The translations under genes and the position numbers were made by a program. A model generated the notes under the pieces. The model was not told the DNA's origin, did no database searches, and worked only from the letters and a program-made list of their open reading frames with translations. A DNA stretch of 51,222 bases. It comes from Elusimicrobia bacterium CG_4_9_14_3_um_filter_62_55. Lineage in GTDB: Bacteria > Elusimicrobiota > Elusimicrobia > UBA1565. The stretch covers positions 1-51,222 of the forward strand of contig PFUL01000061.1 in the NCBI GenBank assembly GCA_002790095.1, read 5' to 3'. Positions 16,861 through 20,280 of the stretch are shown piece by piece. The stretch's first letter is position 1; every line of letters begins with the position of its first letter.

Positions 16861-17762
16861 GCCGCCTTCCGGTAGGCGCGTTCGGCCCGGTCGGCGAGAC
16901 CGGGTCCCGGCTCCAGCCAAACGGTCGGGACCTGGCGGCGGAACCAGGTCCGTTGGCGTTTGGCGTAGCCGCAGGTGCTTCGGATCATCGCTTCGAGCGC
17001 CTCGCCCTCTCCCATTTCCCCCCGGACGCAGGCGACGGCCTCCGGATATCCGAGGCAGCGAAATCCCGGCTCGAGACCGAGATAGTGGGACGGGACGAGA
17101 CTGCGGACTTCTTCGAGAAGGGCGGGAAACATCGCACCCGCCCGGATTCGGATGCGTTCCCGCAGCGTCTCCGGTTCCCAGGAGATTCCGATAAAGACGG
17201 CCGGGTGCCGCGGAGGTCTTTGCGCCCGGTCCCAAAACGAGGAAATCGGCCGCCCGGTCAGCCGGTGGACTTCAAGTGCCCGCATCACCCGATTGATGTT
17301 TCCCGGCGGGATGCTCTTCGCGGCCGCGGGGTCCACCGTCTCCAGCTCCTTATGGAGCGACTCCCGCCCCTCCTCGTCGGCGCGCTTCTTAAGCGCTTCC
17401 CGCAGCGCGTTGTCTCGCTGCGGGAGATCGTCGAAGCCTTCGAGCAGGGCCCGGAGGTAAAGTCCCGCGCCCCCCGCGAGGATCGGAAGCCTTCCCCGCG
17501 AGCGGATATCCCGCAGGACGGGTTCTGCGAAACGGGCGTAGGAACCCGCGTCCGACGATTCTGCCGGGTCGAGGATGCCGATTCCGTGATAGGGGACGTC
17601 GAGATTCGGATCGGGTTTCGCGGTGGCGGCGTCGAGCTTTCTGTACAACTGACCCATGTCGGCGGAGAGAATCTCTCCGTTCAAGCGGCGCGCGAGTTCT
17701 ATCGCGAGATCGGTTTTTCCCGAGGCCGTCGGGCCGACGATCGCGAGGAGAATTGGGTTCAG
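16857..17762 (-). CDS. miaA: tRNA dimethylallyltransferase MiaA (301 aa), CTG start likely
   Basis: It adds the isopentenyl group to A37 of tRNAs that read UNN codons, in the same pathway as MiaB encoded nearby. The P-loop GPTASGKTDLAIE is followed by LNGEILSADMGQLYRKLD, YHGIGILDP, LAGGAGLYLRALLEG and a C-terminal GYAKRQRTWFRRQ. No ATG, GTG or TTG exists between the upstream PilZ stop and the P-loop. The only near-start is CTG at 17762, whose TG is shared with the TGA stop of the PilZ gene. A start at the internal TTG (17684) would delete the ATP site, and a start far upstream would overlap the PilZ frame. I infer a CTG start with translation coupled to the PilZ stop. Confidence 0.88.
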   Translation of the reverse strand: MNPILLAIVGPTASGKTDLAIELARRLNGEILSADMGQLYRKLDAATAKPDPNLDVPYHGIGILDPAESSDAGSYARFAEPVLRDIRSRGRLPILAGGAGLYLRALLEGFDDLPQRDNALREALKKRADEEGRESLHKELETVDPAAAKSIPPGNINRVMRALEVHRLTGRPISSFWDRAQRPPRHPAVFIGISWEPETLRERIRIRAGAMFPALLEEVRSLVPSHYLGLEPGFRCLGYPEAVACVRGEMGEGEALEAMIRSTCGYAKRQRTWFRRQVPTVWLEPGPGLADRAERAYRKAA

Positions 17763-18274
17763 GCTTTGGGGGGCCAGTGCGGCGCCTTCTGCGTCTTCGT
17801 GCAGAGGTAGTGGAAGCCGCAGTCGGGAACGCAGGCTTCCGGCAAGCCGAGGGAGACGCGGGTGTTGCAGTCCGCGTCGTCGTCGGCCATGCGCTGAATC
17901 GCTTTCTGGTACTTCTTGGCGATCTTCGTGAATTCAATGCCGACCGAGAATGTCTCGCCCTTCTTCGCCACGCGGACGACCCTCCCCTCGATCGGAAGAT
18001 GATCGAGGCCGGGGATCGTGAGCGTCATCTTGAAGCATTTCGTACGGGGCGGCGCCAAAAAAGTGATGAGAGCCAGGCCGCCCTGGGAAAGGTTGGTCAG
18101 GATTGCGGGCTGCGTTCGCAGGTGCTTGGGAATCGCGTCTTCCTTTCTCGCCCCTTTCGACGGCTTGTCATCGGCCGCGTAGCGGAGCACGATCGGTTCG
18201 ACCAGGTCGCTGACGACCGAAACGCGGGGCGCTTTGCGGCGCTCGGTCGAGCTCTTTCCGTTCGGGTGTTTCAT
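17759..18274 (-). CDS. PilZ-domain protein with a C-terminal cysteine cluster (171 aa)
   Basis: The PilZ part has ERRKAPRVSV (the RxxxR c-di-GMP motif; here R-K-A-P-R), ILTNLSQGGLAL (the usual D/NxSxxG motif) and EGRVVRVAKKGETFSVGIEF. PilZ domains bind c-di-GMP and control motility or exopolysaccharide. Residues about 135-165 add a region with four cysteines (DADCNTR, EACVPDCGFHYLC) that could bind metal; this is not part of the PilZ fold. The start at 18274 is the first Met before the domain. It is followed directly by miaA. Confidence 0.72.
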   Translation of the reverse strand: MKHPNGKSSTERRKAPRVSVVSDLVEPIVLRYAADDKPSKGARKEDAIPKHLRTQPAILTNLSQGGLALITFLAPPRTKCFKMTLTIPGLDHLPIEGRVVRVAKKGETFSVGIEFTKIAKKYQKAIQRMADDDADCNTRVSLGLPEACVPDCGFHYLCTKTQKAPHWPPKA

Positions 18275-18333
18275 CAAAACTACGATACTAAGAAACGGCC
18301 CGAGGGGCAAGTAGAGCGGCGGCCTAAAAAGGA

Positions 18334-18596
18334 ACGGAATACTTACGCGCTTTGGGCGCGTGGCTCGACGAATTGCTTCGCAATTCGCCGAGCTCCAACG
18401 GCAACGGCCCGGCCCTCCCGGGCGAACGCGCCTCCACGCATAAGAATAGAATCCCGAAGGGATTCCACGAATCAGTTGCAGGAGCGTGATGCGCGGGAGC
18501 GGCCGTTCAAGCGCGGTTGCCGTTGTCTTTCGAGCTCGCGTGTTTCCGCGAAGCGGAAACCGCGAGCCACGCGCCCAAAGCGCGTAAATATTCCGT
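18334..18596. repeat. Large cloverleaf-type inverted repeat (about 263 bases)
   Basis: Outer arms 18334-18367 and 18563-18596 are complementary at 33 of 34 positions (the arm starts ACGGAATA and ends GTGGCTCG). Inside, perfect hairpins occupy each side: CGAATTGC/GCAATTCG at about 18368-18387 and GTTTCCGC/GCGGAAAC at 18542-18560. An inner stem follows: GAGCTC (18390-18395 with 18532-18537) and CAACGGCAAC (18396-18405) with GTTGCCGTTG (18516-18525). Apical hairpins include GCCCGG-type (about 18408-18423) and GAATCCC/GGGATTC (18449-18465). No open frame or transposase is present. It begins 3 bases after the miaB stop. The outer pairing may extend imperfectly into the miaB end. This stretch explains the 325-base gap between PilZ and miaB. 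Confidence 0.9.
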
Positions 18597-18599
18597 TTA

Positions 18600-19889
18600 T
18601 TAAGCCGCCGTTCTCTCGGCCAGCGCCGTGCACTTCAGGGCGGTCGGGGAATGGCCGGTGACTTCGGCCTCGACGATGCTTCCGGGCTCTCCCGGGGCGT
18701 CGAGGCGTCCCTTGAAGTGGTATTGGGTTCGTCCGTCCGTCTTGTCTTCCAGCAGCAGCTTCACGCGGGTCCCGACCATCGCGCGCAGGTGCTTGCGCGT
18801 CCGGGCGTTGACCGCTTTGAGCAGGAGGTCCAGCCGGCGTTCGATCTCCGGCTCGGGAATCTTCCCCTCCATCGCCGCGGCGGGGGTCGTCTCGCGGGCG
18901 GAAAATTTGAAGCAGTAGGCCGAGCAGAAGTCGCCTTTCTCGACGAAATCCAAGGTCATGCGGAACTCGGCTTCGGTCTCGCCGGGGAAGCCGACGATCA
19001 GGTCCGTCGACAACGCCAGGTCGGGGATGAGGGTGCGCAAGCGTCCGGTCCGTTCGAGGTATTCCTCGACCGTGTAGTTGCGGCGCATCGCCTTCAGCAG
19101 TCGGTCGGATCCGCTCTGCGCGGGCAGGTGGAGGTGGGGCATCACCCGTCCGCATTCCGCCATCGCCGCGGCGAGCCGGTCGTTTAGATAAAACGGGTGC
19201 GGGCTTGTGAAGCGGATGCGTTCGACTCCGGAAACCGAATCGACCGCGCGGAGCAGGTCCGCGAAATCCTCGCCGGAAGGGGCCTTGTAGCTGTTGACCG
19301 TCTGTCCCAGCAGGATGATTTCCTTGGCCCCCGCGGCGACGGCTCGCCGGCTTTCTTCCAGAATCGTGTCGAAGGGGCGGTAGAGTTCGCGCCCCCGCAC
19401 GGAGGGGACGATGCAGTAGGTACAGGCATAGTTGCAGCCGCGCATGATCGTTACGAACGCGCTCGATTCGGAGTGCGCGGCGCCCTTCGGTTGATGATCC
19501 GGAAAAGACTCGCGTTCGGGTCCCCAATCGAAGCGCTCCCGGACGGCTTCTTCAAGCACTTGGGGATACTGCGGCATCGTCTTCGCGCCGACGACCAGAT
19601 CCACGTGCGGAAAGCGCTTGCGAATCCACGGCCCGATGCGTTCCGCCGCGCATCCCGCGACGATTAAAAAGCGGTTCGGGTCGGCCTGTTTCCAGGGGAG
19701 CAGGCGCCCGATCTCGGAGACGGCCTTATCCTCCGCGTGCTGGCGAACCGTGCAGGTGCTGAGAATCAGGGCGTCGGCCTCGTCCATGACTCCGGTCGGC
19801 GTAAATCCGCGGGCGAGCCACGGGCGCGCCATCTCTTCGGCGTCGGCGACGGACATCTGGCAGCCGAAACTGCGGATGAAGAGTTTCAT
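18600..19889 (-). CDS. miaB: tRNA-2-methylthio-N6-dimethylallyladenosine synthase MiaB (429 aa)
   Basis: It is a radical SAM methylthiotransferase that modifies i6A37 made by MiaA. The N-terminal UPF0004 domain has FGCQM, STCTVRQHAEDK and AGCAAERIG (three cysteines for the second cluster). The radical SAM motif is C-x3-C-x2-C in MRGCNYACTYCIVPSVRGRE (about 150). A TRAM domain closes the chain (about 365-429). The start at 19889 gives the standard MKLFIRSFGCQM. The stop is 3 bases before the cloverleaf repeat. It lies 10 bases after the ASCH gene. Confidence 0.95.
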   Translation of the reverse strand: MKLFIRSFGCQMSVADAEEMARPWLARGFTPTGVMDEADALILSTCTVRQHAEDKAVSEIGRLLPWKQADPNRFLIVAGCAAERIGPWIRKRFPHVDLVVGAKTMPQYPQVLEEAVRERFDWGPERESFPDHQPKGAAHSESSAFVTIMRGCNYACTYCIVPSVRGRELYRPFDTILEESRRAVAAGAKEIILLGQTVNSYKAPSGEDFADLLRAVDSVSGVERIRFTSPHPFYLNDRLAAAMAECGRVMPHLHLPAQSGSDRLLKAMRRNYTVEEYLERTGRLRTLIPDLALSTDLIVGFPGETEAEFRMTLDFVEKGDFCSAYCFKFSARETTPAAAMEGKIPEPEIERRLDLLLKAVNARTRKHLRAMVGTRVKLLLEDKTDGRTQYHFKGRLDAPGEPGSIVEAEVTGHSPTALKCTALAERTAA

Positions 19890-19899
19890 GGGAGTTCCG

Positions 19900-20280
19900 T
19901 CAGACCTTCTCGACGAGTTCAAAATAGGAAACCCGAACGAGTTCGGAGCCCTGCAGTTTCCGGCTGTTGGCGAAATCCGCCGCCCGGCGGCATTCGTCCA
20001 GCGTCAGGCCGAGCGCGCGCGCGACGGCTTCGTCGATGTCGCCCCACGGGATCGTGACGATCCGGGTGATGCGCACGGTGCAGCGTCCCCTTCCGTTCTT
20101 GTCGACCACCCGCACCAGGTCGCCTTCGTCGGCTTCCTGTGGATCGTAGGACGGGCTGGAGGTCGCGGATTTGTGTCCGCTGAGGATGCGCGCAATGAGC
20201 GCCTCGCCGAGGCCCTCATCTCCGAACCACCCGAATCGCATTTCTCTCACGGCCTTTTTGCTTGCAGGGAACAGCGTCAT
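19900..20280 (-). CDS. ASCH-domain protein (126 aa)
   Basis: The pattern RFGWFGDEGLGEALIARILS, GHKSATSS, the turn EGDLVRVVDKNGRGRCTV and TIPWGDIDEAVARA is an ASCH domain of the DUF984 type, a PUA-like fold thought to bind RNA or modified nucleotides. The start at 20280 gives MTLFPASKK; a GTG seven codons upstream (20301) is also possible. It lies 10 bases before miaB and probably shares its transcript. Confidence 0.85.
   Translation of the reverse strand: MTLFPASKKAVREMRFGWFGDEGLGEALIARILSGHKSATSSPSYDPQEADEGDLVRVVDKNGRGRCTVRITRIVTIPWGDIDEAVARALGLTLDECRRAADFANSRKLQGSELVRVSYFELVEKV

Follow-up and report, generated by a model that had tools for sequence, protein, structure and literature searches.

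REPINs and BIMEs are inverted doublets of palindromic ends that enclose a variable linker and lack a target duplication; they lie between genes, occur in many copies and include one-ended remnants (PMC3116915, PMC2817692). The repeat family described here, one copy of which is a 263-base palindromic sequence in an uncultured member of the Elusimicrobiota, resembles them in all of these respects. Unlike REPINs, of which the GI doublets of SBW25 span about 71 bp between invariant 16-mers (PMC3116915, PMC2817692), its members are much larger, and each end (END in the following) carries two tandem hairpins (H1 and H2); RAYT genes bordered by such ends were not detected. Moreover, compensatory changes are reported across the doublet in REPINs (PMC3116915, PMC2817692), whereas those of the family occur within each END and not across the doublet.

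Palindromic families that form head-to-head heterodimers are also represented by the CGTC- or GTAG-tagged REPs and the TIRYT repeats (PMC3733652). The Elusimicrobia family shares this organization and, with the tagged REPs, the preference for sites flanked by convergent or co-directional genes; a known transposase is likewise missing for CGTC REPs (PMC3733652). By contrast, its hairpins are longer than those of CGTC/GTAG REPs, no tag adjoins the stems, and a conserved outer tetranucleotide, ACGG, is located 7 nt before the H1 stem. As in bacterial MITEs (Correia, ERIC, RUP and others; PMC2229807), the elements are short, non-coding, dispersed and bordered by terminal inverted repeats, and some copies reside inside IS1595-type shells, which likens them to IS1595-family MITEs. 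Unlike bacterial MITEs, they have no target duplication at their own ends, an autonomous parent was not found, and hairpins within the ENDs covary. PATEs and other IS200/IS605 derivatives have subterminal hairpins at both ends and no target duplication, and so has the family; to our knowledge, however, the two ends of IS200/IS605 elements do not form an inverted pair of copies, as those of the family do.

The palindromic element between miaB and pilZ

The window, i.e. the whole stretch of 51,222 nucleotides that was analysed, is contig C147 of an Elusimicrobiota MAG of 4.3 Mb (G000), which harbours about 26 related ENDs. The closest relatives of its MiaB protein are likewise encoded by Elusimicrobia MAGs. 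No other inverted repeat of high identity in the window approaches the length of that formed by the outer arms of the element (18334-18367 and 18563-18596), which pair at 33 of 34 positions, as the earlier note had counted, and can be extended to 35 nt at 97%. Terminal inverted repeats, a feature of MITEs, are thus present in this copy, as they are in 58 paired elements overall. The features of the locus are compiled in the table.

Table. Features of the element and of its neighbouring genes in the window
Feature	Position	Strand	Basis
PilZ-domain gene, downstream	17759..18310	-	PF07238
Whole inserted element, ACGG...CCGT, inverted END pair and linker	18333..18597	.	
Left END: ACGG-N5-TT, H1 (18345-18361) and H2	18333..18393	+	
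Inner stem, left arm: GAGCTC, then CAACGGCAACGG	18390..18408	+	DNA and RNA folds, four-copy consensus
Central hairpin GAATCCC-GAA-GGGATTC	18449..18465	+	Folds, four-copy consensus fold
Right END, inverted: ACGG-N5-TT, H1 (18569-18585) and H2, loop CGAAG	18534..18597	-	
MiaB-type radical-SAM methylthiotransferase gene (radical-SAM/UPF0004)	18600..19922	-	PF04055, PF00919

Folded as DNA, the 263 bases reach a minimum free energy of -108 kcal/mol (z -15.2) and as RNA one of -167.5 (z -13.2), and in neither case was any of 200 shuffles as good. The order beyond chance that had been noticed earlier therefore lies 13-15 s.d. past the shuffles, and the sequence and its folds contain all of the parts described with it: side hairpins, the inner stem GAGCTC and the apical hairpin GAATCCC-GAA-GGGATTC. 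Hairpin parsing placed the H2 stem of the left END at 18363-18376 and 18380-18393 with the loop TTC at 18377-18379; the left arm of the inner stem finds its partner within 18516-18537, both in the individual folds and in the consensus fold of four home-genome copies. The GAA or TTC triplet loops are real in the window copy but lineage-specific, as H2 loops in a related genus mostly comprise 6-8 nt with ACG inside. With R1, a covariance model of one END, the left END scored 62 bits (E 8.9e-14) and the right END 54.2 bits (E 8.1e-12). Rfam returned only three tRNAs in the window and no RNA-family match for the element.

The element comes to within 2-3 nt of the miaB stop codon (18600-18602), in line with the 3 bases given previously. 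Seven relatives share the gene order miaB-pilZ. Between the aligned coding parts of the two genes lie 292 nt in G000, but the gap is nearly empty in three relatives of different species or genera (about 24, 18 and 10 nt in G002, G005 and G004, respectively), which indicates that the window element is an insertion at this site. In two further relatives (G001, G003) other palindromic inserts occupy the same place, with a gap of about 415 nt; the G001 insert includes an END that follows the plan of the family but differs in H1 (TTACGACCCTCGTGGGTCG) and matches R1 with 26 bits.

A dispersed family with a common plan

When searched against its own genome, the 263-base sequence retrieved full or near-full copies with 77-86% identity on contigs C75, C64, C159, C19, C153 and C113, together with a tail of diverged or one-ended copies. 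The pattern TTACGCGCNNNGGGCGCGTGG, with up to 2 mismatches allowed, occurred at 21 sites in G000, 66 in G002, 127 in G007 and 8 in G005, compared with 0-1 for the reversed control. All genomes compared are MAGs. Of 341 Elusimicrobiota genomes, 6 had a stricter pattern, two of them at a single site with one mismatch, and no IMG/VR contig matched it; a viral origin was rejected on this basis. R1 detected 26 ENDs in G000, 81 in G002 and at least 93 in G007, and a few in other members of the host's GTDB family; outside that family, four genomes from a second family of its order gave 2-4 weaker matches. Several sets of identical ENDs are found at different loci of G002, stopping at contig ends, and are taken as a sign of recent amplification in that genome. 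Multiple copies at home and in relatives, the relatives' empty site and compensatory changes in H2 (see below) bear out the earlier proposal of a distinct, dispersed and MITE-like repeat family, and are contrary to the single copy without compensatory changes that the note had named as its refutation.

The 58 paired elements and many single ENDs share the plan 5'-ACGG-N5-TT-H1-G-H2-linker, followed by the same plan inverted. H1 reads ACGCGC(C/T)TCGGGCGCGT (general form ACGCGC..GCGCGT). In the aligned ENDs it is bordered by TT(T) and GG, and neither hairpin is adjoined by a GTAG or CGTC tag. H2 is usually a hairpin of 14-16 bp. Elements range from 194 to 1211 bp, usually from 194 to about 430 bp, and conservation breaks off sharply at their ACGG...CCGT ends. 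A search of all 58 elements for direct repeats (symmetric, 2-12 bp; asymmetric, 3-10 bp) revealed no target duplication at these ends, in agreement with the earlier note on the window copy. Based on simple gene calls the sites are intergenic, with 21 of 50 between convergent and 23 of 50 between co-directional genes, and the median distance to stop codons is 11 nt.

Individual members show additional features. The two ENDs of a 716-bp member in G002 (L075:296-1012, contig C16) enclose a full-length gene for a 144-aa DUF6998 protein (PF22522, E 1.2e-43), which looks like cargo. In G000, L013, L017, L018, L020, L023 and L006 have a second palindromic repeat, rich in A+T (around TTTTTACATATCGCGAGATATGTAAAAA), inside or beside them. 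Many copies in several genomes (L011, L021, L083, L085, L098, L102, L130 and others) contain in the linker, or have beside it, a perfect palindrome of roughly 20 bp, AACT(A/G)TCCNNNNGGA(T/C)AGTT, or paired variants of it, for example AACTCGCCCCGGGGCGAGTT. Finally, a long perfect hairpin (ACGTAACATAACTACGCGA...TCGCGTAGTTATGTTACGT) comes after the one-ended copy L080 (G007, contig C362).

Conservation of the two hairpins

The data set comprised 153 ENDs with 54 distinct H2 stems. ENDs were gathered by an H1 pattern, and H2 played no part in it. H1 stays almost invariant, which is partly built in because of this mode of collection. The alignment of 46 non-redundant ENDs contained one END per distinct stem and left out H2 with more than 2 mismatches or less than 11 bp; this omission raises the percentage of paired positions, and the compensatory changes in H2 are not created by it. 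H2 differs freely in sequence between ENDs but keeps its pairing. Double changes occurred at 14 of the 15 H2 pairs and amounted to 153 cells versus 52.6 after shuffling, a signal that collapsed in slid controls. Among 622 cells, mismatches of the G.T (8) and A.C (7) type were equally rare. If selection acted on an RNA made from one strand, one of the two types should predominate. Their equal rarity thus argues for conservation at the level of DNA and not of a strand-specific RNA, and the structured RNA considered in the earlier note is disfavoured by this strand symmetry. The mismatches point to a DNA palindrome or a hairpin of single-stranded DNA, or possibly to self-correction of a palindrome during replication.

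Compared with shuffled pairing, left and right outer arms of the same element did not covary in G007 (p 0.89) or G002 (p 0.34), and in the six copies of G000 the excess was weak (p 0.06 overall and p 0.03 for H1). Selection on the whole cloverleaf is therefore unsupported in G002 and G007. The giant cloverleaf is mostly a by-product of two inverted conserved ENDs, since one hairpin-rich recognition sequence is present at either end of the element in opposite orientation. It folds as originally described, but the conserved unit is each END with its two tandem hairpins and not the whole. When H2 stems were grouped into classes, which were defined after inspection of the stems, only 2 of 37 doublets in G007 combined the same class, compared with 13.4 in shuffles; doublets of that genome thus have a defined left and right END. 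The same shuffle test gave no significant two-class pairing in G002.

IS1595-type shells and candidate mobilising enzymes

A minority of copies, mainly in relatives, is enclosed by IS1595-type shells. ENDs were located just inside CTCCAAGTTCCC-like termini in 14 of 45 cases in G002, 8 of 87 in G007 and 2 of 21 in G000 (controls: 1, 1 and 0), at a distance between terminus and palindrome of 23 to 53 nt in clear cases. Shell units are surrounded by 8-bp duplications at L070 (GGCCGCCC) and L012 (GTATCCGC) and, at shifted boundaries, at L103 and L023, and L111 shows a 7/8 match; as shifts of up to 3 bases were allowed, some of the 8/8 matches may be flattered. An element in G005 whose termini are of this kind codes for a transposase of the IS1595 family (PF12762, E 1.1e-20); the element has an imperfect duplication (7/8) and no R1 END. 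Most copies are without a shell, and the window copy lacks IS1595-type termini. The copies that do lie within shells indicate that an IS1595-family transposase can carry them as passengers.

Contig ends of G005 (L235, L240, L256-L261 and others) display two sets of near-identical termini (TCCATGTTCCCGGACTTTT...). These break about 120 nt inside an element, have tandem hairpins of their own with different sequences, and probably represent high-copy IS1595-type MITEs collapsed in assembly.

Genes of the PF01797 (RAYT/HUH) type are present in all eight family genomes (5 in G007, 6 in G000, 12 in G002). The R1 END was absent from all 30 RAYT loci examined, and a RAYT partner by adjacency was rejected on this basis; about half of the loci are flanked by other inverted repeats. 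At L159, L165, L168, L170 and L172 these repeats are 25-31 nt long and unrelated to the element, and such loci resemble the TIRYT arrangement (PMC3733652). IS110 was rejected as mobiliser, as G007, the genome with most pattern matches, has no IS110 gene and the sole one in G002 is broken and looks inserted between two ENDs. DDE_1 transposases were rejected because G007 encodes none. An autonomous parent transposon with the same ends was thus found neither among the RAYT and IS110 loci examined nor as a DDE_1 gene in G007. Identical copies collapse at the contig ends of the MAGs, and an autonomous copy could be concealed at precisely these places.

Discussion

We consider it quite probable that the palindrome in the window arose by insertion and belongs to a mobile family of non-autonomous palindromic elements that is MITE- or REPIN-like and mobilised in trans. 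The family is MITE-like in its size and inverted ends, and REPIN- or BIME-like as a doublet of hairpin-bearing ends. At each END, a trans-acting enzyme would recognise the sequence of H1 and the shape of H2, and it would move the doublet as a unit. For stand-alone copies, whose movement is deduced from empty sites in other species or genera, we favour as an unproven model mobilisation in trans through recognition of single-stranded DNA hairpins by an enzyme; the missing target duplication and shape recognition speak for such a single-strand (HUH-type) mechanism rather than for a DDE enzyme.

An alternative, in our view improbable, assignment is that the ENDs are the REPs of one of the genome's own tyrosine (HUH, PF01797) transposases and the elements RAYT-mobilised REPINs or BIMEs. 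Hairpin doublets, the lack of target duplications and the bias toward 3'-intergenic sites do resemble REPs (PMC3733652, PMC3116915), and every family genome has RAYT-type genes; yet these are equally present in genomes without the element, the 30 loci carry other inverted repeats or none instead of R1 ENDs, and the tags expected beside H1 or H2 are missing. Possible, if hardly probable, is that the palindrome forms the interior of an IS1595-family MITE, with stand-alone copies being old MITEs whose outer termini have decayed. The frequency of ENDs inside CTCCAAGTTCCC termini, which is above that of controls, the 8-bp duplications at several units and the G005 transposase with matching termini are compatible with this. 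However, most copies, including that in the window, have neither the termini nor any 8-bp duplication, the conserved part stops sharply at ACGG while its distance from the terminus varies, and the IS1595 element itself has no R1 END. IS1595-type transposition thus can account for palindromes carried as passengers within shells.

Selection for a function at the 3' ends of genes, as a structured RNA, terminator or mRNA stabiliser, would explain the very stable fold, the proximity to stop codons and the many convergent sites, and a T-rich stretch (TTCCTTTTTA) follows the pilZ-side end of the window copy in the reading direction of miaB. We nevertheless regard it as very improbable: neither strand is favoured by the mismatches, no T-tract is conserved beyond the ENDs, a terminator scan remained at chance level, and the miaB-pilZ gap of relatives works without the element. 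A single structured RNA is disfavoured by the Rfam result and the strand symmetry as well as by these empty sites. A further possibility, which we hold to be rather improbable, is that H2 perfects itself, its pairing being kept by template switching in replication instead of by recognition of the hairpin, and that the rest is ordinary MITE biology. The strand-symmetric, nearly wobble-free compensation fits this model, as do near-perfect H2 hairpins with short loops next to arms about 200 nt apart that do not covary in G002 and G007; mutation bias alone, however, does not predict two END classes per G007 element or a near-invariant H1. Template switching may act together with selection.

Returning to trans-mobilised palindromic elements as the preferred reading, it is rather doubtful that they represent an undescribed transposition system, in which each END combines a sequence-specific and a shape-specific hairpin, no target duplication is made, cargo can be carried and the enzyme is of unassigned class. 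We report the family as palindromic non-autonomous elements that are members of neither the REPINs nor the MITEs, because some defining features of each of these groups were not found, i.e. a GTAG or CGTC tag, a RAYT with these ends and covariation across the doublet (G002 and G007) on the one hand, and a target duplication and a parent transposon on the other. No relevant report on Elusimicrobia repeats of this kind was found in the literature searched; the family is a previously undescribed one of small, gene-less mobile DNA elements between the genes of uncultured Elusimicrobia.

As a note of caution, a striking fold of a whole element can arise as a by-product of inverted ends. The large natural data set of ENDs allows recognition of a DNA end by sequence to be told apart from recognition by shape, and if the enzyme is found, it can be tested whether hairpin shape alone serves as a recombination signal. 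The family also shows that REPIN/MITE-type repeats, dispersed and palindromic, flourish in an uncultured phylum.
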